IMG/VR virus record: IMGVR_UViG_3300005918_001175
Span: 1 to 20,460 of that record
Length of the DNA: 20,460 nucleotides
DNA from: a virus
Direction: 5' to 3' (one strand)
The position numbers and the translations under genes were made by a program. Each line of letters opens with the position of its first letter. The stretch's first letter is position 1. Under the pieces are notes generated by a model. That model saw nothing but the letters and a program-made list of their open reading frames with translations, was not told where the DNA came from and ran no database searches. Shown one piece after another: positions 1,871 through 17,423 of this stretch.

Positions 1871-2461
1871 TCAAGCATTGTATTTAGCTTGTAACGCTTT
1901 GATCTTTTCAGTACCGAGTGATATACCCTCTTTTAGTTTCTCCTGTTTTACCGGATCAAGATATACTCTCATAATGAATAAAGAGTTTTCAAAGTTAGGA
2001 TTGTAAGCTACAAAATCACACCACTTTCTGCCAGTAACGAGCATTTGCATTTGCATTTGCCATTCGTACTTTGATTCGATCTTCTTTTCAATTAAGGCTT
2101 TAAAGAAGTTAATATCATTCGGGCATTTAACCTCTGCCAATCCTTCTTCTTCTACGGTACGATCAGGGCTTGCGCCGACGTTCTCATTAAGCTCAACGAA
2201 TCCGATAGCCTTTGTCGTTACGCCCTTCTCTAATTCGTACATAGAGATTGCCTGTGCTTCGAGTTCATTACCCCTCTCCATGTCTTTATTGGTGTAATAC
2301 TCTTTCTCACCGCTTGAAAATGATTCAGCGACAACTTGCCAGCAATAAGTTTCAAGTCCTTTGCCGCATGATCCGATTGCCTGTGCGTGACTAGCGGTCA
2401 TTTTGCCCTTTCGGACCTCAAACCATTCGTCTGTTCCTTGTTCCATTGTGTGAATTTTCAT
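1871..2461 (-). CDS. YqaJ / lambda-exonuclease family nuclease
   Basis: A 196-residue phage recombination exonuclease of the PD-(D/E)XK superfamily, expected to resect double-stranded DNA ends so that the RecT partner can anneal the single strands. Visible motifs are the N-terminal GTDEWFEVRKGKMTASHA (residues 9-26), an acidic helix ERGNELEAQA (62-71), and the catalytic core SPD at residue 100 followed by EVK at 110-112. A Gln-rich helix YEWQMQMQM around residue 135 is also typical of YqaJ-like enzymes. All expected active-site residues are present, so it looks functional. It starts two bases after the stop of the coiled-coil gene, with recT just beyond. No Shine-Dalgarno sequence precedes the ATG. 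Confidence 0.92.
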   Translation of the reverse strand: MKIHTMEQGTDEWFEVRKGKMTASHAQAIGSCGKGLETYCWQVVAESFSSGEKEYYTNKDMERGNELEAQAISMYELEKGVTTKAIGFVELNENVGASPDRTVEEEGLAEVKCPNDINFFKALIEKKIESKYEWQMQMQMLVTGRKWCDFVAYNPNFENSLFIMRVYLDPVKQEKLKEGISLGTEKIKALQAKYNA

Positions 2462-2463
2462 AA

Positions 2464-3444
2464 TTATTTTAAGTTATAGGTCGCAACCTTTTTATAAAGT
2501 ATTTTCTGACTCTCATTACTGACAACGTAATACTCCTCTTTGGTTTCAGGTGTACAACCGTTATCGGCTAGAAATTTAACGTATTTATCAGCCTTTTCTT
2601 CTTTGGCTTTTTTGGCGGCAAGCTCATTGGCTTCATTCTCTTTACGCTCTTTTTCAGCCTTTTCATCTAAAATTCTTTTGGCTTCCAATTCTTTCTGATC
2701 GTCAATGATCTTCTGCTTGTCGGCTTCTGCTTCCTTTTTAACCCGATCAGCCTTCTCCTCTGCGTCACGTTTGATTTTATCCTCGCGCTCTTTGCCCTCT
2801 TTCTTGATCTGATCCTCTTTCTCCTTGGCTTCTTTTTTAAGACGCCCCTCATTGTCGCGAGCTTCCTGTGCTTTTTTGTCGGCTTCTGCCTTTGCAAGCT
2901 TGGCTTCTTCTTCTCTAGCTTTTCGCCCGGCTTCTTCAATTTCCTTTTTACGAGCTATACGATCCTCCTCCTCTTTTATCTTGCGTTCTTTTTCCACAAG
3001 GTATTCGGATTTTTTCTCGTTATAAAACTCTTGGAATTTCTCGGGAGTCATTAATAACAGCTCATCATCGGTCATTTCAATATTCATTTCCTTTAACCTT
3101 TCTTTGCGTTCAGGCAAAAGAGTACGTCTTTGCTCGATAATTTTCTGTTCATCAACCTTGTCTTGTTTTTCTTTAAGGTCTTTTTCAAGTGGCTCAATGA
3201 TTTGTACGAGTTCTTTTTCTAAAGCAATTATTCCCCTCTGAAACTCTAATGCTTCGGATCGTAGTTCCTTACCAGTCCTTTGTAAATCAACCCTCTTACG
3301 TTTTAAATCTTTCCGGGCTTCATCTACTGCCAAATATCCTTCCTCGTCCTCAACGCCCTTAATTGTGAGCGCTTGGTATTTTGTTGATAGCTCAATTAGT
3401 TCTGCTTTTTTCGGAGAGAACTTTTCCATGTTTAAATCATTCAT
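2464..3444 (-). CDS. Long charged coiled-coil protein between recT and the exonuclease gene
   Basis: A 326-residue protein. Residues 1-100 (with AVDEARKDLKRKRVDLQRTGKELR and a helix with IEPLEKDLKEKQDKVDEQ) resemble the N-terminal half of phage DUF1351-type proteins that often accompany RecT. Residues 140-285 form an almost uninterrupted Lys/Glu/Ala coiled coil. A short globular end with FLADNGCTPETKEEYYVV follows. It overlaps the recT stop by eight bases and ends two bases before the exonuclease gene, so it belongs to the recombination cassette. It may bring RecT and the nuclease together or inhibit host RecBCD in the way Gam does; both ideas are inference. The charged repeats make homology searches prone to false hits. 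Confidence 0.75.
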   Translation of the reverse strand: MNDLNMEKFSPKKAELIELSTKYQALTIKGVEDEEGYLAVDEARKDLKRKRVDLQRTGKELRSEALEFQRGIIALEKELVQIIEPLEKDLKEKQDKVDEQKIIEQRRTLLPERKERLKEMNIEMTDDELLLMTPEKFQEFYNEKKSEYLVEKERKIKEEEDRIARKKEIEEAGRKAREEEAKLAKAEADKKAQEARDNEGRLKKEAKEKEDQIKKEGKEREDKIKRDAEEKADRVKKEAEADKQKIIDDQKELEAKRILDEKAEKERKENEANELAAKKAKEEKADKYVKFLADNGCTPETKEEYYVVSNESQKILYKKVATYNLK

Positions 3445-4219
3445 TAGTTTTATTGGTTATGAAATTCTTACGATCTGCTAAAAGTTTATCTAATCCTTTT
3501 CCTTGGCCCCTGTTCTGCTCCCAATATTCTTTTAATCCTTTTAGGTCATTGATCTTTTCGATTGCTTGCTTGTGCTTTAAATCAACGTCAATAGGCAAAT
3601 TGATGTCATTCTCTTTGTTATCTTCGTCGATAATATCACTATAAAGATCATCGAAATGAAACTTCACCGCTTTCTTGATTACGGTTTTAAGTGCCATTTC
3701 TGCGAACCATGCGCGCCAGATGTAATCAGTCTTTGCAACCTTTCGGGCTTTTTCTATATCTGCCTTAGTTAAGGTAGTCATGAAGTTACCGCGCTTATTC
3801 TCAATAATACAATAACCTCCTACGATATTAAGCTCTGTTTGATTGAATGGGTCTTTTGGTACATGCTGGTACATAATGTCACCGTTCATTTTAGAGTAAG
3901 AAAACTCATCATCTTTATAAACAAGCTGAACATCTATTTTGCTTTCGGGATAAGCTAAAAGCATTTTGTTCTTATAAGCAACATAGTCATAACTTATTCC
4001 GCGAGCTTGTAAGGTAACGTGTTTACCATCAAATGCTAATCCTTGCGCCAATACTCTTTTGAATAGATCGACAAGTTCCGCTTCTGTTTTAAATTTAATC
4101 CATGGGTTCTTAGCTTTACCCATTTTATCAGTCTCTTTTTCAAGAGCGATAATGTAACTGGCGTATTGTTCAGCGCCGTGTTTTTCGCCAATCAATTTTA
4201 TAAGGCTTTCTTTAGTCAT
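3437..4219 (-). CDS. recT: RecT-family single-strand annealing protein
   Basis: A 260-residue RecT-like recombinase that would coat single-stranded DNA and anneal complementary strands. The family core is visible: an N-terminal helical region, NPWIKFKTEAELVDLF, then LAFDGKHVTLQARG, and a central segment GGYCIIENKRGNFMTTLTKA. A helix with KTDYIWRAWFAEMALKTVIKKA follows. The length is normal for the family, and the acidic C-terminal third is typical too. The gene leads the coiled-coil and exonuclease genes, the classic pairing of annealing protein and nuclease. The ATG at 4219 is preceded by AATAAAAC four bases upstream rather than by a Shine-Dalgarno sequence. Confidence 0.9.
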   Translation of the reverse strand: MTKESLIKLIGEKHGAEQYASYIIALEKETDKMGKAKNPWIKFKTEAELVDLFKRVLAQGLAFDGKHVTLQARGISYDYVAYKNKMLLAYPESKIDVQLVYKDDEFSYSKMNGDIMYQHVPKDPFNQTELNIVGGYCIIENKRGNFMTTLTKADIEKARKVAKTDYIWRAWFAEMALKTVIKKAVKFHFDDLYSDIIDEDNKENDINLPIDVDLKHKQAIEKINDLKGLKEYWEQNRGQGKGLDKLLADRKNFITNKTNE

Positions 4220-4240
4220 AATTGTTTTATTAAAGTAAAT

Positions 4241-4432
4241 TTAAAGATCAAGTCCCGAAGCAATATCGGCGTTATAATCACGCCATTTTTCCTGTTCTAG
4301 TTCTCCATGTAAATATCCATCTTCATCAGCATAATTGTCATTATAGCGATCAACTGCGCTGTCTAAACCTTTTTCTGAACATTCAACCTCCTGTAATATA
4401 TCGGAGGAGCCGTGTTTTATATGATTGTTCAT
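4241..4432 (-). CDS. Small acidic hypothetical protein, first gene of the early operon
   Basis: A 63-residue, strongly acidic soluble protein (MNNHIKHGSSDILQEVECSE at the start; DNYADEDGYLHGELEQEKW in the middle). No domain is recognised and there is no membrane segment. It is the first gene after a near-consensus promoter (4457-4485), with an expected leader of about 18 bases, and it ends 21 bases before recT. Small acidic leading-gene proteins in phages are often inhibitors or DNA mimics, but no such claim can be made from this sequence. Confidence 0.6.
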   Translation of the reverse strand: MNNHIKHGSSDILQEVECSEKGLDSAVDRYNDNYADEDGYLHGELEQEKWRDYNADIASGLDL

Positions 4433-4456: not shown

Positions 4457-4485
4457 AGTATATCAAATTATGAAAAGTATTGCAA
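4457..4485 (-). promoter_or_regulatory. Sigma70-type promoter for the leftward early operon
   Basis: Reading the minus strand, a -35 box TTGCAA (4485-4480) is followed by a 17-base spacer and a -10 box TATACT (4462-4457), five of six bases matching consensus. Transcription should start near 4450, about 18 bases before the ATG of the small acidic gene. Its -35 half lies inside a 16-bp element that recurs at the upstream promoter, so both are probably under the same control. Confidence 0.7.
4470..4485 (-). repeat. Shared 16-bp promoter element, copy A
   Basis: The minus strand reads TTGCAATACTTTTCAT. It matches the element at 4733-4748 at 15 of 16 positions and includes the -35 hexamer. The same stretch at two promoters suggests a common operator or a duplicated promoter. 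Confidence 0.65.
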
Positions 4486-4493
4486 GTCTTTTT

Positions 4494-4700
4494 TTAAAAT
4501 AACTTTCCAATATCTTCATTTAACACCTTAGCAACGGCTTTCATATTCTTTAAAAGAGGCTCATGGTAGCCGTGGGCCATATTCCATATTGTTCTATAAG
4601 ATACAGTCGCCACACCCTCTGCGCCCATTGTGCCACGAAAGAGATCAATCAGTTTGATATTGTTCTTCTCGATGTACTTTAATAGTTTAGTCTTTTTTAT
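4494..4700 (-). CDS. Cro-like helix-turn-helix repressor with a probable non-AUG start
   Basis: A 68-residue frame whose sequence after codon 1 reads KKTKLLKYIEKNNIKLIDLF and continues with TVSYRTIWNMAHGYHEPLL and NMKAVAKVLNEDIGKLF. This is the usual plan of a small Cro/CI-type DNA-binding protein: helix 1, a helix-turn-helix around VSYRTIWNMAHGY, then the closing helix ending in LF. The frame has no ATG, GTG or TTG at its natural beginning. Codon 1 would be ATA (4700) or the ATT just before it (4703), and the upstream in-frame TAA leaves no room for another start. The first ATG (4628) would remove helix 1. A promoter at 4721-4748 predicts a transcript starting near 4714, just ahead of this point. 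It lies between two similar promoters and is the best candidate for the early-region switch. Confidence 0.65.
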   Translation of the reverse strand: MKKTKLLKYIEKNNIKLIDLFRGTMGAEGVATVSYRTIWNMAHGYHEPLLKNMKAVAKVLNEDIGKLF

Positions 4701-4720
4701 AATAAGTTTAAGTTAAGTTG

Positions 4721-4748
4721 CTTATATTTTACATGAAAAGTATTACAA
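4721..4748 (-). promoter_or_regulatory. Promoter for the Cro-like gene
   Basis: On the minus strand TTGTAA (4748-4743), a 16-base spacer and TATAAG (4726-4721) form a plausible sigma70-type promoter. The predicted start near 4714 leaves a leader of only about 14 bases before the ATA/ATT start of the Cro-like frame. It shares a 16-bp element with the operon promoter at 4457-4485. Confidence 0.55.
4733..4748 (-). repeat. Shared 16-bp promoter element, copy B
   Basis: The minus strand reads TTGTAATACTTTTCAT, identical to copy A (4470-4485) except for one base inside the -35 box. It overlaps the promoter of the Cro-like gene. Confidence 0.65.
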
Positions 4749-4758
4749 AAGTCAAGAA

Positions 4759-4792
4759 GTTAACCAAGCTAACATGAGTTAACTACTCTAAC
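4759..4792. promoter_or_regulatory. Pair of operator-like inverted repeats
   Basis: Two 15-bp sites, GTTAACCAAGCTAAC (4759-4773) and GTTAACTACTCTAAC (4778-4792), share the pattern GTTA-N7-TAAC and lie 19 bases apart centre to centre, roughly two helical turns. They sit directly upstream of the Cro-like promoter, as expected of binding sites for a dimeric phage repressor. A looser variant, GTTAGTTGTTTAC, follows near 4822. Confidence 0.55.
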
Positions 4793-4879
4793 TTACAAGG
4801 TTGAACTGTTGATTTCCTCGGGTTAGTTGTTTACTGAAAGCTTTCCCTGCTAAATGAATAGGAAAATTTTTAAATAAAC

Positions 4880-5160
4880 AATTACATACAATTAAAGTAG
4901 ATAGTTTGGCAAGCAAATACTATCCTGTTGTAATTCAATTAGTTTTTAAAGATCAGCAATCGATTGGTATTGTGCGGCTATTTCCTTCGGAAGCAGTCCA
5001 CTTCAGCGTTTCTATTTTTTATACGAGGTTTTAATTATCCCTGCTCCTCGCCTGTTATTCAGGATGTAGATTGTAAGGCATTGCGGACGTTTAGAGAGCC
5101 TACCTCAGGCGTATGCACCTTTTAAGGCTGTGCATTTGACGATACTCTTACAACCTACAT
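4880..5160. ncRNA. Gene-free structured region (possible untranslated RNA, leader or origin)
   Basis: About 370 bases around here hold no convincing reading frame but many inverted repeats. A nested hairpin pairs AATTACA (4880-4886) with TGTAATT (4929-4935) and encloses GATAGT/ACTATC (4900-4924). CGAGG/CCTCG arms lie near 5023-5050 and CCTG/CAGG at 5052-5063. A 14-base stem joins 5064-5077 to 5147-5160 and encloses two further hairpins (GCCT/AGGC near 5098-5109; ATGCAC/GTGCAT at 5113-5135). In the long stem the only imperfect pair is A-C if read rightward but G-U if read leftward, which favours an RNA made from the minus strand. I cannot assign it to a known RNA class. An origin of replication or a long 5' leader of the Cro-like gene are alternatives. 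Confidence 0.4.
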
Positions 5161-5170
5161 TCTAATTAAC

Positions 5171-5243
5171 AAAAATCCCTAGTTCGGTGGTCGTGGTGAA
5201 GCACACAAGCGAGTGTCCGACAACCACCAAACTAGGGGTTTTT
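5171..5243. terminator. Strong bidirectional hairpin terminator after the endolysin gene
   Basis: Arms at 5177-5194 and 5220-5237 pair at 16 of 18 positions, flanked by an A run on the left and a T run on the right, so both strands end in a U tract. Read leftward the two mismatches become G-U pairs, giving a nearly unbroken stem followed by TTTTTG. It is therefore best suited to stop transcripts leaving the virion/endolysin operon. The 25-base loop holds a second small stem (ACAC/GTGT). Confidence 0.8.
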
Positions 5244-5999: not shown

Positions 6000-6021
6000 T
6001 TATGTAATAAATTGATATGGT
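5993..6021 (+). promoter_or_regulatory. Plus-strand promoter for the small membrane gene
   Basis: A perfect -35 box TTGACA (5993-5998), a 17-base spacer and TATGGT (6016-6021), with TGA directly before the -10 box as an extended -10 element. The expected start near 6028 lies about 17 bases before the ATG at 6045. It overlaps the start codon of the oppositely oriented endolysin gene. Confidence 0.6.
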
Positions 6022-6044
6022 ACTATCTAAATAATATTAATGCT

Positions 6045-6194
6045 ATGTTTGAAACAATATTTATAATTATCAGTTGTTTAATTCTTGCTTTCGCAGCATG
6101 GTCGGAATTTAGTGATAGAGATGCAATTATTAAGATTTGTACTATTTTTGTTCTTATTGTTGTCCTTAATGTGCTTAATCAAGTTCTTTCATAA
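6045..6194 (+). CDS. Small two-helix membrane protein, holin-like candidate
   Basis: A 49-residue frame on the strand opposite to all other genes. It reads MFETIFIIISCLILAFAAW, then a short charged turn SEFSDRD, then AIIKICTIFVLIVVLNVLN, i.e. two transmembrane helices joined by a tight polar loop. It occupies the only sizeable gap between the giant virion gene and the endolysin gene and overlaps the end of the giant gene by 20 bases tail to tail. A promoter with a perfect -35 box lies in the right place. The size, hairpin topology and position beside the endolysin suggest a holin or an anti-holin-like regulator; that function is inference. T-rich DNA can imitate hydrophobic proteins, so it may be spurious. 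Confidence 0.45.
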   Translation: MFETIFIIISCLILAFAAWSEFSDRDAIIKICTIFVLIVVLNVLNQVLS

Positions 6195-9100
6195 CTTCTT
6201 CCGCTGTCATAGTCTTATCTACCTTAAAGGCTCTAGCGAGCTTGTCGGCTTTTTTTCGTGTAATTTCTTCATTCTTTACCGCGATCCCTAGAGCAATATC
6301 AATAGGAGTATAAAGATCATGAAGCTCATTTGTGACTGGCATGAGGTTTTCGTCGCTCGTGTCACCTCCGGCTGTAACAGGTAGAATATGTTCAAGTTTA
6401 TAGTCGCCTTTTTTTGACCATGGTATTCCTTCTTTTTCCATAAGTTCTTTCTTTCTCTCTTGTGATCCGCCTTTATCTGTGAACTTAATTCCGTAGAATC
6501 TTTGAAGTTCGACAAGGTTTCCTTCGACAATCCCCAATTTTTCTTTTGTAGCAAGAGCCTTCCAAGCATTACCCGGGTCTTTGATAAATGCTTTTGTATA
6601 ATCAGAAATCAAACCGAACGTACCTCGTTGCTCTAAATATTCTTTTTTAGTAGGATTCTTTTTTTCCTCCTTATCCTTGCTATCTTGTATCACTTTTTTA
6701 AGTTGCTTATACAATGTAGGATCGCTTTTTGAAAGTTCTCGAGAACGCTTATTTGCTTCATCCTTTGGCAAGTCTTTAAGCTCATCATAAAGCGACCTTG
6801 CCTTGGATGTTTTTTTAAGTTCTGTAATTTGCTCCATTACATCATCTGAAATCAACTTCTTCGATTTTAGTTTTTCGATATAGTCATATTTCTCCTTGCT
6901 CGTTTTCATCTCCTCTGTCTGCTCATAAATGTATTCAGAACGTGCGCCATTCGCTACTCCAAGCTGTTTAATGCGTTTTTCTGTGTCACTTAAATCTAAC
7001 TTTTTCGCTTCAATTAAATCTACAAGCTGTGTATGCAAGGTAGGATCGCTCTTTTTTAAATCATTCGCGCGTTTGTTTGCTTCCGCTTTAGGTAAATCTT
7101 TCAATTCATCGTAAAGAGTATCAACTTCTGCCTTGGTTTCTTTGCGTTCTTTTGTCTGTTCTTTTATACGCTCTTTAAGTTCCGGGTCTTTGCCTTGTTC
7201 AGATTGCCATTCAGTTTGGAGTCCTCTTTTAACCTTTTCTCCTATGCTCATGTCCTCACCGCCAACAATATCTTTCATTTTTAAATACTCCTCTCGTAGA
7301 TTTTTGGTAGGGATTTTTAATAAAGCGCCTGCACCGTCGATCATATTAAGAATATCCTTGCTATCACCCTCTCCCTTTAGAACATCTTGCGTACTGTTTA
7401 TGGCCTTGTTGTACATTTTTAATGCTTCACCACTCAAAGAAGATGGATCGAAAGGCTTTAGGTGTTCGTAGTCGTCCTCGTCCTCCCCCATAGTAACGAG
7501 TATCGTCATTACAATCCCTGTCATTATTCCGTATTCTAAAACCTTACCAAATCCCATGAAACCACTTATCGGGCTTAATAGAGTCTTGGTCATAAGGCTA
7601 GCAGGGTTCCAGTTCCCACGACTGATCTCGTACATTCCGGGCAACATGAATTGATATGCCACGATCTCCTTTACCAATTTTGAGAAAGATTTTTTGCTCC
7701 ACTTGTTAGGATCATTCTTCCATTGTCTAACCGAGTCATACCACTTGGCACGGTACATTGATTGTGCCTGTTGAAATGCCCCTGTGGTTCTGATAACCGG
7801 ATGGGATCTCTTAATCCAGTTTGCAAATTCGGGTAATGCTGATTGCTGTGTGTTCACAACAAAATCTACCGCTTCATCAAGTGCCATTCTGTCGGCTGTT
7901 TTCTCGTCGTACCCCTGATCCTTAAATTCTTTTAACTTCGCGTCATACACACCATACCCTGCTCCGACAACACCGACCATATCACCAACCTTGGTGAAGT
8001 ACATAGCGGTTTCGGAAATATCTACGCCTTGTTTTGTGTAGGCTGTGGTTTCTTGCTCCATCATACCCTTGCTGAAACCTGCTTTTTTGTGACGGTATCT
8101 GATTATTGGACTCTCTGAAAGTTTCTCATAAGCCTTTTTGGGGTTGCTGATCGCTTTCATCACTCCTGTTGTAAAGTCTTTTACTGGAACTTCGGCCATC
8201 CCTGCAAGTGCGGAAGATCCCTGCGATAGTACATTCCGCGTCTTACCACCGATGAACATAATTGACATCATCTGCTTAATGCTATTTATTCCCTTCGCAA
8301 AAACATCTCCATAATCTTGTCCGTTATTAACAACAAATTCAAAGCTATCTACCAACTGCCTGTATGAAGAAGCACCAAAATATTCGATAAATTCGCTCTT
8401 AAAATCCTTGCTGTTTATTACTGAACTAATATCCGAAAAGGTCTTGTCATAAGCAACGAATCGTGATATGTCATTCCTCCAATTAAAGAACTTTGTGAAG
8501 GCGTCTGACATCAAAAGTGGATTATCATTTTTCACACGTTCCTTGAAAGCGCTCGGGGATAATGTAGTTTTATATTTTTGGTCCGGGGAAAGCATATCCA
8601 CTCCTTCTTGCTTGGTCCCCATGTATCTGCGTTGCATTGTCCAATATCCGCCTTGCACAAAAGGAAACGGCTTATTGTACTTGTCCTCGTAGGTCTTACT
8701 CATTTCGCTCGTGAAGTCTTTATTGCCTATCTGCTTTTCGATATAATCTGCAACCTTCTTGGCTTCTGGCCCCATATTTTTCTTTACGGTCTCAAACATT
8801 GGTTCAGTAAAAATCAATACCCTATTTTTAGGATTTTGACCTCCAATATACATTCCATTATTCATTAGAACTTCCCTGTTTTCTTTCATCAAACTTGAAA
8901 TGTAAATATCCACCATTTCCCCCTGTGAAAGCCATATCTTTAAATCCTTAATGTACTTTTGTTGTCTAAACTTCTTTAGTTTTCTATCCAGTTCAAGCCC
9001 TTTGTAGGCTTTGTTTACTTTTGTGATTACTTTGCCTTTCAAAAATATCTCCTCAAACATTTTCTTGTCTTTGGCTATGTAATCAGCCTCAATGTCAAAA

Positions 9101-12100
9101 AATCTCTCGTTAGCCTTTTGAATAGGTCGATATAATACGTCTTTAAAAAATCTGCCACCTCTCACCTTGTCCAATAACGAAACTATTTGAGCATATCCCC
9201 TGTCGAATATGTCCAATACGTTGATCGTTTTAGTTAAGAAATTCCCTTTCTTATTGTCATTCGGAGTAGTTATCTCTCTGCGTGACTGCATGTTCTCAAC
9301 TGAATTTTCAATATCAATCTGCAAGTTGATCGCCCGATCCGCTTGCTGAAATAGAAAGCTCTCCCTGCCTGTAAGCTGTTCCTCCTTAATCCGGCCGAGG
9401 ATGGTTTTAAGCTCCTTGCTGTCCATATCCTTTAAGCCCTTTGTGTTCTCCACCAATAAAGCATAAGTCACAAAATCCTGTGGAACTAAATCGGTATTCG
9501 TCTCGATCTTATCGGATAGTTCTTTTTCAAGTAGCTGATTTTCAGCAGTTGAGTTTTTGAGTATCTGCTTATACCCATTCCGTACAAGTTCATATCTTAA
9601 AGAGGTCTTTCCTTTCTCCTTTTTCTTCGCTTCGTACTTCTTCAATTCTTTAGGGATCGCCTTGCGTAGATCCCTTACTGTACTTTCCTCCAATAGATTT
9701 TCCATTCTGTCTAAAGCCTTTGCAAAGTCCTTTTCCGTTGCTTCATATCCCTTGGTAGTGATCTTTCCATCGACCTTGTTGATCCCGACATTCTTAATCA
9801 TCGGTAGCAACTTACCTCTTTCATTAAGAGAGAGATGCTTTTGAGAAAATTCGGTAATAGATTCTTTAGTTGTTTGAATATGTTTCAGCTTTTCCTTTTC
9901 GGTAGTCGCCTTCTTATAAGCGGTTTCAACCTTACTCCTTAATTTAGTAAGCTCATCTTGCCGTAATATAGCTCGCTCCTTGCGCGTGAGTAGCACCTGT
10001 GCGCTGTTTAGCTGTGCTAGGCTAGGCATATCCATAATCTCATCAAACGCCTCTGTATCAACGAGGTCTTGCCCTGTGGCTTCGTTAAATCTTTCGATCA
10101 TACGCTCAACATTCTCCGGGTAGTCTTTTCTTAATGTTTCGATGTCCCCGCTCGCGTACTTCTTCGTATCTTTTAACTTACGCATTTTGTCGAATAAAGC
10201 TAAATCGCCTTTAGTGAATAGGCTCGTTTGCGATTCGATCGCGTCTTTTTGTATCGCGCGTTCGGATTGTTTCTCTAAAATCTGTGTAGGTGTAGGCGGT
10301 TTCTCTTTCTCAACCTTCGGCTCCGGGGTAGGCATAGTCTTTGGCTTAACTTCTGTCTTTGGTTCAGGAGTAGGCATTGTCTTGGGTTTTGTAGGTTCCA
10401 TTTTCTTTGGTACTGGCATTACGTCCATTAGCTTTTTCTCCTGTATTTTCTTTGTATCAGCGTCAATATCTTCTTTTTTTAGTTCTTCCAGTTTTTCGTA
10501 TATGTTCCCTGATTGATACTCAAAATCGTCGTAATACTTACCTTTGTAAACATTAAGACCTTCCTTGCCTACCTTTGATGTATCAATGCTCCCGTCTGCG
10601 TTCTTAGCACCCCAAACAGCCAATTGCTCTTTCGTATAAGGAATTGCGCTTTTGTAGTATTGACCTAGCTTTTCATTTCCTTTTCCCTCTTTAGATACTC
10701 CTTCATCTTTCCTTGTTTCGCTAGTTCGCTTAGTTCCTTCTTTTGTGCTGGGCTTAGTTTGTTTAATGCCTTCAACAAGGCTGTCGTATTGTTCTTGATT
10801 AATTTTTTCGCTCTCTCTAATTGTTCCCCGTTCCGCTGATTCATCTCCCAAAGGTACGGGTGTTTCGTTTTGTCGATCTTCATAGGTTGGTTGTTTAACT
10901 GGTTCTATTTTACTCTCATTTTCGCTTGGTGTCAAGCTATCCTCGCCAAACATTGAACTTTGACCTTTTGGCGGTATATTTCTTCCACCTCTTGTATCTC
11001 CAGCGATTTCTTTTACTGCCTCTTTTAAAGTTCCAACATATTGAGGGCTTTTCATTAAGCTATCAAAAGTCATTATCATTAATGTTTCCTGTAATAATCT
11101 ATCTCTCCCTTCTTCCGTAGTAATAGGATCATAGTATTTTCTTTCATCTATAAATGCCTGTGCTGGCTCTCCTATTTCTTCCTCCAGTATCTCGGGTATT
11201 ATACCGTCCCACCTGATACCCTTTTCAATCTTTTTCATTACATTTGCCACTCCTTCGTTTTTTATCCACCTGTGCATTACTGTACGTTTCAGATTCCTTA
11301 TTGCTTCTGATTTCGGTATATTCATATAATCTCCCAATCTTTCTGTGTAGTTTTCCACAAACCTGCTCCCAAAGGCTCTAGTAGTAGCTTCCACGAATCC
11401 CATATCATTTTGAACCAACTCGAAAGCCCCACCTTTTTTATCATCAATAAATTCTAATTCAGGTACAACATTCCTCTTAATAACCTCTAAAACTGTTCCT
11501 TGTTGCAATGCTGTCTGTAATATCGTACTAGGTATTTCTTTAATTATTCTTTCTGCCTTTGTCTGAAAACTCCTTTCAATACTGTTTCTTATTGTTTTTC
11601 CTAGCTGTGCTTCGATAGAACCTAAAACATTTTTTGATACTTTCTTTTTTAAGCCTTTAAGTATGGCACTCGATGTCATCATTTCTGCACCGAACTCGGC
11701 ACTATCTACAAGCCCCATTGATAATTCTGAACCTGTCGACCTTACTTGGTGCTGATCTATTAAATAATTACTCTTCAATATATCATCTTCTACTGTGTAA
11801 TCCTTTTCGTCTTTCTTGGATAGTTTGAAAAGGTCGTAGTATTTTACTGCTTCAGGTATTAATGTAAATCTACTTACTGCCCCCTTCACATCTTTTACTA
11901 TTGTATCTGTTGTGTATTGAGGTTTCCCCGATACTACATTTGCCATGTCCTCTTTAGCCTTTTTGAGTTTATTTAATTGATACCGTTTTTTATTGTTAGA
12001 AAAGCTCATGCTGTCATTATCAAAGTCTTTCTCTATCTCGGCAATTCTTTTGTCTAAGGTTGTTACTCCTTTCTTAAAAGCTGGTATTAATTTCACTCTT

Positions 12101-12579
12101 TCATTCTCCTTTTCTAATGCCTTAACTGACTTATGGTAATCGCTTCCACTTCCTTCGTTAACTCTTATCTTGCTAATAAACCTTGATGTTCCGGTTATTG
12201 CCCTTTCTAAAAACGGTTGCTTTTCGCCTTTTTGATTTAACTGTTCGTCGCCATTAATAATATCGTACTCTTTCATTATTTTGTCTGCGTGCTGTATTCC
12301 TACTTCTCCTGCCTTGATTTTTTTCTTTAGATCATTTACTAATTTAACTCTCTTATCGTCTTTTTTATCTGCACGGCTAAAATCAAACTTAGCCTTCGTA
12401 GAAGGTAGTTTAGCTTGTTCAGCTTTATTTGTGATATAACCACCAACGCTTGATTTTATTCTATCCAAAGTACCCGTCCTAGTTTCGGGCTTCGCTGTAT
12501 ATTCTTTCGCTTTAGCTAGAGCGCTTTTACCTTTTTTTAAAGCATTAAGGTAAGTATTTGGGTCGAATAAGCTCGTCAT
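6175..12579 (-). CDS. Giant internal/ejection-type virion protein with C-terminal HNH-like motif
   Basis: A 2134-residue protein, the largest here, in the position of podovirus internal virion or large polyvalent proteins that enter the cell with the DNA. Residues 1-560 are helical and basic. Residues 560-790 are a polar linker with a Pro-rich stretch in which KPKTMPTPEP is repeated. Residues 800-1420 are mostly helical. Residues 1430-1710 form a more hydrophobic core (MSIMFIGGKTRNVLSQ, then RTTGAFQQAQSMYRAKWYDS) ending in a possible membrane segment YGIMTGIVMTILVTM near 1677. A duplicated 31-residue unit follows, then an HNH-like site at the end (His2064, Asn2078, His2087, with EHILPVTAGG). 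It starts just after the CHAP-like gene and is followed leftward by the endolysin. An ejected protein carrying a nuclease is plausible, but the roles are inferred from context. Confidence 0.7.
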   Translation of the reverse strand: MTSLFDPNTYLNALKKGKSALAKAKEYTAKPETRTGTLDRIKSSVGGYITNKAEQAKLPSTKAKFDFSRADKKDDKRVKLVNDLKKKIKAGEVGIQHADKIMKEYDIINGDEQLNQKGEKQPFLERAITGTSRFISKIRVNEGSGSDYHKSVKALEKENERVKLIPAFKKGVTTLDKRIAEIEKDFDNDSMSFSNNKKRYQLNKLKKAKEDMANVVSGKPQYTTDTIVKDVKGAVSRFTLIPEAVKYYDLFKLSKKDEKDYTVEDDILKSNYLIDQHQVRSTGSELSMGLVDSAEFGAEMMTSSAILKGLKKKVSKNVLGSIEAQLGKTIRNSIERSFQTKAERIIKEIPSTILQTALQQGTVLEVIKRNVVPELEFIDDKKGGAFELVQNDMGFVEATTRAFGSRFVENYTERLGDYMNIPKSEAIRNLKRTVMHRWIKNEGVANVMKKIEKGIRWDGIIPEILEEEIGEPAQAFIDERKYYDPITTEEGRDRLLQETLMIMTFDSLMKSPQYVGTLKEAVKEIAGDTRGGRNIPPKGQSSMFGEDSLTPSENESKIEPVKQPTYEDRQNETPVPLGDESAERGTIRESEKINQEQYDSLVEGIKQTKPSTKEGTKRTSETRKDEGVSKEGKGNEKLGQYYKSAIPYTKEQLAVWGAKNADGSIDTSKVGKEGLNVYKGKYYDDFEYQSGNIYEKLEELKKEDIDADTKKIQEKKLMDVMPVPKKMEPTKPKTMPTPEPKTEVKPKTMPTPEPKVEKEKPPTPTQILEKQSERAIQKDAIESQTSLFTKGDLALFDKMRKLKDTKKYASGDIETLRKDYPENVERMIERFNEATGQDLVDTEAFDEIMDMPSLAQLNSAQVLLTRKERAILRQDELTKLRSKVETAYKKATTEKEKLKHIQTTKESITEFSQKHLSLNERGKLLPMIKNVGINKVDGKITTKGYEATEKDFAKALDRMENLLEESTVRDLRKAIPKELKKYEAKKKEKGKTSLRYELVRNGYKQILKNSTAENQLLEKELSDKIETNTDLVPQDFVTYALLVENTKGLKDMDSKELKTILGRIKEEQLTGRESFLFQQADRAINLQIDIENSVENMQSRREITTPNDNKKGNFLTKTINVLDIFDRGYAQIVSLLDKVRGGRFFKDVLYRPIQKANERFFDIEADYIAKDKKMFEEIFLKGKVITKVNKAYKGLELDRKLKKFRQQKYIKDLKIWLSQGEMVDIYISSLMKENREVLMNNGMYIGGQNPKNRVLIFTEPMFETVKKNMGPEAKKVADYIEKQIGNKDFTSEMSKTYEDKYNKPFPFVQGGYWTMQRRYMGTKQEGVDMLSPDQKYKTTLSPSAFKERVKNDNPLLMSDAFTKFFNWRNDISRFVAYDKTFSDISSVINSKDFKSEFIEYFGASSYRQLVDSFEFVVNNGQDYGDVFAKGINSIKQMMSIMFIGGKTRNVLSQGSSALAGMAEVPVKDFTTGVMKAISNPKKAYEKLSESPIIRYRHKKAGFSKGMMEQETTAYTKQGVDISETAMYFTKVGDMVGVVGAGYGVYDAKLKEFKDQGYDEKTADRMALDEAVDFVVNTQQSALPEFANWIKRSHPVIRTTGAFQQAQSMYRAKWYDSVRQWKNDPNKWSKKSFSKLVKEIVAYQFMLPGMYEISRGNWNPASLMTKTLLSPISGFMGFGKVLEYGIMTGIVMTILVTMGEDEDDYEHLKPFDPSSLSGEALKMYNKAINSTQDVLKGEGDSKDILNMIDGAGALLKIPTKNLREEYLKMKDIVGGEDMSIGEKVKRGLQTEWQSEQGKDPELKERIKEQTKERKETKAEVDTLYDELKDLPKAEANKRANDLKKSDPTLHTQLVDLIEAKKLDLSDTEKRIKQLGVANGARSEYIYEQTEEMKTSKEKYDYIEKLKSKKLISDDVMEQITELKKTSKARSLYDELKDLPKDEANKRSRELSKSDPTLYKQLKKVIQDSKDKEEKKNPTKKEYLEQRGTFGLISDYTKAFIKDPGNAWKALATKEKLGIVEGNLVELQRFYGIKFTDKGGSQERKKELMEKEGIPWSKKGDYKLEHILPVTAGGDTSDENLMPVTNELHDLYTPIDIALGIAVKNEEITRKKADKLARAFKVDKTMTAEEVMKELD
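6700..6792 (-). repeat. 31-residue protein repeat, second copy
   Basis: This encodes residues 1930-1960 of the giant virion protein, beginning LYDELKDLPKDEANKR. It matches the copy at 7024-7116 in 24 of 31 residues. Confidence 0.75.
7024..7116 (-). repeat. 31-residue protein repeat, first copy
   Basis: This encodes residues 1822-1852 of the giant virion protein, beginning LYDELKDLPKAEANKR and ending SDPTLHTQL. The second copy lies 108 residues further on. The DNA has diverged more than the protein, suggesting an old duplication kept for its structure. Confidence 0.75.
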
Positions 12580-16883: not shown

Positions 16884-17423
16884 TTATGTTATAAGATTAA
16901 ATCTTAAGCCATTCCATATTCTACTTATTTCACTTTGGCTTACTTTAAATATTTTCGCAACTTCCCATTGTTTAAGTTTTGGTTCAAAGTTTTTTAGGTG
17001 TTTAATAACTTTTACTTGTTTTTCATTTAGCTTAGATAAATTACATTTAGAACCACATTTAACAGTTTTTCTTCCCTTACTATAAGCTATTTTAATGTTC
17101 TCTGATTGAGTACCCCATTTTAAATTTTCTAATCTATTATCATCTTTTTTATCGTTTAAATGTAAAATACATTTATAATTATTTGGGTTATTAAGAAAAC
17201 TCTCACCAATTAATCTATGAATTGTTTTTTGATATTTTTTATTATTTTTATAAAGACTAATCTGTACATAACCTGTCCTCAATATTACTCCCTTAATCTT
17301 TACTAATTTATCACCAATAATAGAACATTTATTTTTACCACCTATTTTTGTCCACTTTGAATATACCTGACCTTTATCAGAAATAAAATAACCTGGAAAG
17401 TTTAGAATTGTTCTTATATTCAT
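16884..17423 (-). CDS. HNH homing endonuclease (NUMOD4/HNH type)
   Basis: A 179-residue free-standing homing endonuclease of the SPO1-like HNH group. Residues 8-22 match the NUMOD4 motif (FPGYFISDKGQVYS). Residues 70-125 carry the HNH core: GYVQISLYKNNKKYQKTIH, RLIGESF, then HLNDKKDDNRLENLKWGTQSEN, with the conserved His and Asn present. The C-terminal part (VAKIFKVSQSEISRIWNG) is a helix-turn-helix for target binding. It is more AT-rich and Lys/Asn-rich than the virion genes around it, a sign of independent acquisition. It overlaps the preceding tail gene by four bases (ATGA) and stops seven bases before the fibre gene, so it has entered the operon without breaking either neighbour. Confidence 0.9.
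   Translation of the reverse strand: MNIRTILNFPGYFISDKGQVYSKWTKIGGKNKCSIIGDKLVKIKGVILRTGYVQISLYKNNKKYQKTIHRLIGESFLNNPNNYKCILHLNDKKDDNRLENLKWGTQSENIKIAYSKGRKTVKCGSKCNLSKLNEKQVKVIKHLKNFEPKLKQWEVAKIFKVSQSEISRIWNGLRFNLIT

Follow-up and report, generated by a model that had tools for sequence, protein, structure and literature searches.

An ATA triplet within an intact initiation region of a probable regulator gene in a partial phage genome

Introduction

At which codon would a small phage gene be translated when no standard start codon stands where the gene appears to begin? The question is raised by a 68-codon frame heading the recT operon region of a virus record, here called the window (the whole stretch of 20,460 bases that was analysed, apparently a partial phage genome). 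A first-pass annotation had read this frame as a Cro-like repressor with a complete small helix-turn-helix (HTH) plan that seems to start at ATA or ATT, and had suggested that a rare start at a master switch would keep its level low. AUU starts are known, for example at E. coli infC. Here, we examine the frame, its initiation region, its probable product and the neighbouring sequence, and weigh a weak start at ATA against the other readings of the same facts.

The locus and its reading frame

The frame is real, running from ATA at 4700-4698 to TAA at 4496-4494 on the minus strand, an orientation that the first-pass annotation had left out and that all confident genes of the window share (Table 1). 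Read along this strand, the order is TAA 4715-4713, CTT AAA CTT, ATT, ATA, AAA AAG ACT and onwards to the stop. As had been claimed, the in-frame stop lies five codons upstream of ATA and four upstream of ATT, no ATG, GTG or TTG occurs in frame before 4628, and the ATG at 4628-4626 is the sole in-frame ATG near the beginning. A frameshift from an upstream start was considered and rejected: the nearby ATG, GTG and TTG codons open no usable frame, and the ATG and one TTG there meet TAA at once. An altered genetic code was likewise discarded, as TAA, TGA and TAG all terminate genes normally.

Codon usage was modelled on the contig's other genes. From ATG 4628 to the stop the frame gains 18.7 bits over 44 codons, while the two alternative frames give -41 and -32; it is strongly coding from this ATG on, and this in-frame signal counts for a real gene. 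The 25 codons 5' of the ATG are mildly coding (+3.1 bits, other frames -30 and -13). True coding windows have a 5th percentile of 2.2 and a median of 10.2, and open off-frame windows reach 5.3 at the 95th percentile. Because +3.1 bits fits both ranges, codon usage alone leaves the N-terminal part undecided.

Table 1. Features of the locus and of the neighbouring recT gene row
Feature	Position	Strand	Details
Small gene, 68 codons, probably helix-turn-helix protein	4494-4700	-	first codon ATA, stop TAA 4496-4494
ATA at start-codon position	4698-4700	-	start-context score 5.6, like true starts
ATT immediately 5' of ATA	4701-4703	-	weaker context, 0.4
First in-frame ATG	4626-4628	-	context -14.6; within predicted hairpin, -11.6 kcal/mol
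Upstream in-frame TAA	4713-4715	-	reading of frame
Promoter-like site P1, TTGACT-18-TAAAAT	4726-4755	-	consensus match only
Promoter-like site P2, TTGCAA-17-TATACT, TG before second hexamer	4457-4485	-	consensus match only
16-bp repeat TTG[T/C]AATACTTTTCAT, copy 1, within P1	4733-4748	-	repeat search
16-bp repeat TTG[T/C]AATACTTTTCAT, copy 2, within P2, before next gene	4470-4485	-	repeat search
Next gene, 63-aa acidic protein of no known family, ATG start	4241-4432	-	
recT, RecT single-strand annealing protein	3437-4219	-	PF03837, E 1.6e-13
yqaJ-type exonuclease, same gene row	1871-2461	-	PF09588, E 1.1e-19
Strong, near-perfect inverted repeat, T-runs both sides	5171-5243		arms 24 nt, 88% complementary

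Several features elsewhere in the window were recorded along the way. About 450 bases (4716-5170) hold no convincing gene, which is long for so compact a genome, and Rfam has no match in the window. A small open frame on the plus strand (6012-6194) has a membrane-protein-like sequence (MFETIFIIISCLILAFAAW...) and may be a plus-strand gene amid the confident genes of the minus strand. On the minus strand, 6175-12579 encodes a 2134-aa protein with no significant Pfam family and no IMG/VR relative, as found by a pattern scan. Also on the minus strand, 16884-17423 encodes an HNH endonuclease (PF13392) whose C-terminal part weakly resembles sigma-70 region 4; it is inserted among tail genes, and its product looks like a homing endonuclease. 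The frame at the right end of the window runs open to the edge.

Where translation would start

To compare the candidate codons, we used a start-context matrix covering positions -20 to -1 and +4 to +9, trained on the contig's other 18 genes (all ATG). The ATA scores 5.6 bits, the ATT 0.4 and the ATG at 4628 -14.6; accepted starts, each left out in turn, range from -9.5 to 10.9. A first version of the matrix had placed ATG 4628 at -11.1, with a median of -8.5 for non-start ATGs. Few triplets on the same strand score this high: 1 among 404 non-start ATGs, 8 among 545 ATAs and 3 among 531 ATTs. In A+T-rich noncoding DNA, as high a score is reached by 3 of 132 same-strand ATN sites and by 3 of 135 opposite ones, so the context of the ATA is strong but not unique.

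Predicted RNA structure agrees with this. The 45 bases around the ATA have no predicted structure (0.0 kcal/mol), as is also the case at the recT start, while the region around ATG 4628 folds at a predicted -11.6 kcal/mol. The genome has A-rich leaders and no Shine-Dalgarno sequences. In this it resembles Flavobacterium, in which initiation is promoted by A at -3, -6, -12 and -13 (PMC6847099); two of these positions, -3 and -13, hold A in front of the ATA, in agreement with these determinants. Leader lengths also agree: the ATA lies 48 bases from the TTG[T/C]AA of P1, and the next gene's ATG 53 bases from the TTG[T/C]AA of P2. In addition, ATT stands directly before ATG at four true starts of the same genome (1820, 2461, 4219 and 20083).

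The initiation region therefore matches the true starts of its own genome, with no standard start codon at that place. If the gene is translated, the start site is well supported as the triplet 4700-4698, reading ATA. Context scores and structure predictions bear out the earlier view that initiation lies here and not at 4628, and of the ATA/ATT pair that had been named the context scores clearly favour ATA (5.6 bits) over ATT (0.4 bits). The triplet is one transition away from ATG. An ATG reading is available for each of the contig's 18 other genes, which would make ATA the only exception.

The encoded protein

The product is probably a small helix-turn-helix DNA-binding regulator, judging from the similarity of its C-terminal half to known domains. 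With residue 1 taken as the ATT codon, residues 34-67 align to positions 21-54 of Pfam HTH_3 (PF01381) at E 0.2 and 12.2 bits, below the cut-off of 23. On a second profile, for which 30 HTH domains were taken from Bacteroidota genomes, the C-terminal half scores 9.0 bits against -0.8 +/- 1.2 for shuffles, and 0 of 407 scored full shuffles came as high. The recognition helix and the C-terminal helices thus match the HTH profile above shuffled sequence. The N-terminal part behaves otherwise: on the Bacteroidota profile helices 1 and 2 gain -0.2 bits in residues 1-25, a value equalled by 344 of 1000 shuffles, and shuffling these residues leaves the score undiminished. AlphaFold2, run on the single sequence only, returned a model too poor to judge a five-helix fold by (pLDDT 56, pTM 0.31), and a search of solved structures was set aside as meaningless, its best matches being designed Pizza6 proteins and driven by repeats.

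A product begun at ATG 4628 would have just 8 residues ahead of the part matched to HTH profile position 27. An HTH of the HTH_3 kind needs about 26 positions before that part, so the shorter product could not form one. The N-terminal extension is supported because of these missing positions, not because of any detected helix 1. The complete small HTH plan of the first-pass annotation accordingly holds for the C-terminal half (by an HTH_3 match below cut-off) and lacks profile support for helix 1. Similarly, a start at 4628, which had been said to cut off helix 1, would lose the part that helices 1 and 2 require, with the same reservation about helix 1 itself. The name Cro is not supported, since the window contains no divergent repressor and the HTH family match stays below its cut-off, and the idea of a master switch is not supported. 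Specifically, no plus-strand repressor gene that might share operators adjoins the locus, although the contig is incomplete and such a partner may lie outside it.

Promoter-like sites, repeat and operon

Downstream of the small gene, the row continues with the 63-aa protein, recT, a coiled-coil-like protein and the yqaJ exonuclease. The earlier prediction of a promoter was borne out to the extent that a sigma-70-like site, P1, is present; its predicted transcription start at about 4719 lies some 16 bases before ATT and 19 before ATA. The region holds 7 such sites where shuffles give 3.9 +/- 2.0, and a single promoter-like site thus proves little. The Bacteroidota promoter TTTG/TAnnTTTG does not occur at the locus. 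The promoter-like sites are of the E. coli sigma-70 type, though Shine-Dalgarno sequences are absent as in Bacteroidota, and the host is uncertain.

A 16-bp direct repeat links the two sites. Its copies share 15 of 16 bases, a match that arises in 1 of 400 shuffles of stretches of this length. The twelve-base core is found nowhere else in the window at up to one mismatch; two such core matches also turn up in 9 of 100 whole-window shuffles, and what tells is where the two copies stand, not how rare the core is. The repeat is a candidate operator or, alternatively, a candidate promoter duplication. Its presence in the gene's own promoter-like site and in that of the recT operon would fit autoregulation, and the product of the small gene most likely regulates the recombination operon and itself, as far as we can infer from this arrangement. 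The inverted repeat at 5171-5243 is a probable two-way terminator, which would separate the early recT operon from the M23 peptidase gene.

Search for relatives

Protein and DNA searches of IMG/VR, GTDB genomes, phage records and plasmids, from whose output near-identical records may have been held back, returned no homologue of the small protein. Among 395 genomes of the phylum to which the Saprospiraceae recT match belongs, 13 matches appeared at E 0.01-0.09, about the number that chance would give in a set of this size; L037, the best of these 13 weak matches at full length, proved to be an ordinary ATG-start HTH protein and was rejected. Neighbouring genes were also used as queries. The recT relatives comprise 15 loci at 44-56%, and the loci examined by way of recT and yqaJ, all distant, contain no recognisable homologue of the small gene. 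As synteny queries, the tail protein, the 2134-aa protein and the 63-aa protein had no relatives, and the M23 peptidase gave short matches only. Consequently, no relative revealing the first codon (ATA kept or ATG) came from IMG/VR, GTDB, phage records, plasmids or the 395 genomes.

Weighing the readings

Our preferred reading, to which we give a probability of roughly 0.42, is that of a real phage regulator gene at the head of the recT operon region, with an intact initiation region at the ATA and translation starting there at a low rate. Ribosomes of a host that does without Shine-Dalgarno sequences would begin at the AUA (4700-4698), with fMet, and yield small amounts of a 68-residue DNA-binding protein. 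This protein would probably bind the 16-bp element, found in two promoters, its own and the one of the recT operon that follows. The frame, the start context, the predicted absence of structure at the ATA and the repeat are what the analysis shows; that the gene is expressed, that ribosomes use the ATA in vivo, that the protein binds DNA and that it regulates its own gene, we infer. A more demanding version holds that the AUA is a genuine, selected start of an operon-leading regulator, used in a host of this kind with no Shine-Dalgarno help, and that it keeps the regulator scarce or ties it to initiation-factor state, as had been suggested. We consider this version doubtful. Among the points against use of the ATA at all, the examples known from S. 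aureus appear to compensate by extended Shine-Dalgarno sequences, of which the phage gene has none, and one substitution of A for G would account for everything observed just as well.

That change could lie in the record or in the virus. In the former case the virus has ATG, the ATA came from faulty base calling or assembly or is a minority variant that entered a metagenomic contig, and the gene encodes an ordinary ATG-start regulator. The context is that of an ordinary ATG start in all but one base, every other gene of the contig uses ATG, and no close relatives of the contig were found, so there is nothing to check the ATA against; yet direct signs of an error are missing, and with no other broken start or frame in the window the error rate is not visibly high. 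We hold this unlikely, while giving it serious weight. Less probable again is a true G-to-A mutation that removed the start and silenced the gene, or nearly so, in this lineage as a step of early decay. It draws on the same sequence facts, and the frame is otherwise undamaged, as a recent loss would leave it. Strict loss would nevertheless be unexpected, given that AUA keeps part of its activity in tested systems (PMC13009471), and the promoter-like site and the repeat are as intact as the frame. The remaining readings move the start within the frame. A start at the neighbouring, in-frame ATT 4703, by itself or along with the ATA, has a precedent in the AUU start of S. aureus cvfC1 (PMC13009471); the context of the ATT is far the weaker of the two, however, and where ATT precedes ATG at true starts of this genome, the start falls on the codon after ATT. 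This is very improbable. Most improbable of all is a start at ATG 4628, giving a 44-residue protein: it is the first standard start codon in frame, but it combines the poorest context with a hairpin over the codon and would leave the product without helices 1 and 2.

What the locus means depends on which of these holds. If the ATA is real and used, AUA starts, known together with strong Shine-Dalgarno sequences, would extend to a system lacking them and to a phage regulator, and ordinary gene finders would reduce such a gene to its 44-codon remnant or miss it. Should it be an error or a private mutation instead, the locus would teach no more than that a true start can be recovered from its context score despite a damaged first codon.

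Comparison with known systems

Small size and an operon-leading position are usual for phage regulators generally, and the gene resembles them in both. In its protein it is like the HTH_3 or Cro/C1 type (PF01381) in the alignment of residues 34-69 with the recognition helix and final helices; it is unlike that type in carrying about 7 surplus residues ahead of the recognition helix, with helix 1 unsupported. A similar arrangement occurs in a locus (L002) of a phage with related recT and yqaJ, where a 67-aa HTH-like protein (4104-4307), a small gene, recT and yqaJ follow each other on the same strand. That 67-aa protein has a weak family match (YdaS_toxin, E 0.027); unlike the phage gene studied here, its gene starts at ATG, and the two have no detectable sequence similarity.

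The closest parallel for the first codon comes from S. aureus, where infC, ccpN (an HTH repressor) and citZ start at AUA and cvfC1 at AUU; the ccpN, citZ and cvfC1 starts, when tested, reached about 10% to 30% of what AUG gives, and extended Shine-Dalgarno sequences are predicted at the infC, ccpN and cvfC1 sites (PMC13009471). The Shine-Dalgarno sequence of ccpN is strong and extended, its non-standard start is conserved, and reporter data back it (PMC13009471); the phage gene has neither a Shine-Dalgarno sequence nor a relative in the collections searched, and is compared here with no claim of kinship between the proteins. What the two would share, provided that the phage protein binds DNA as we suppose, is a DNA-binding repressor with AUA as its first codon (PMC13009471). 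Since the AUA and AUU starts of S. aureus act at a reduced level (PMC13009471), a rare start that keeps a regulator scarce is sound in principle.
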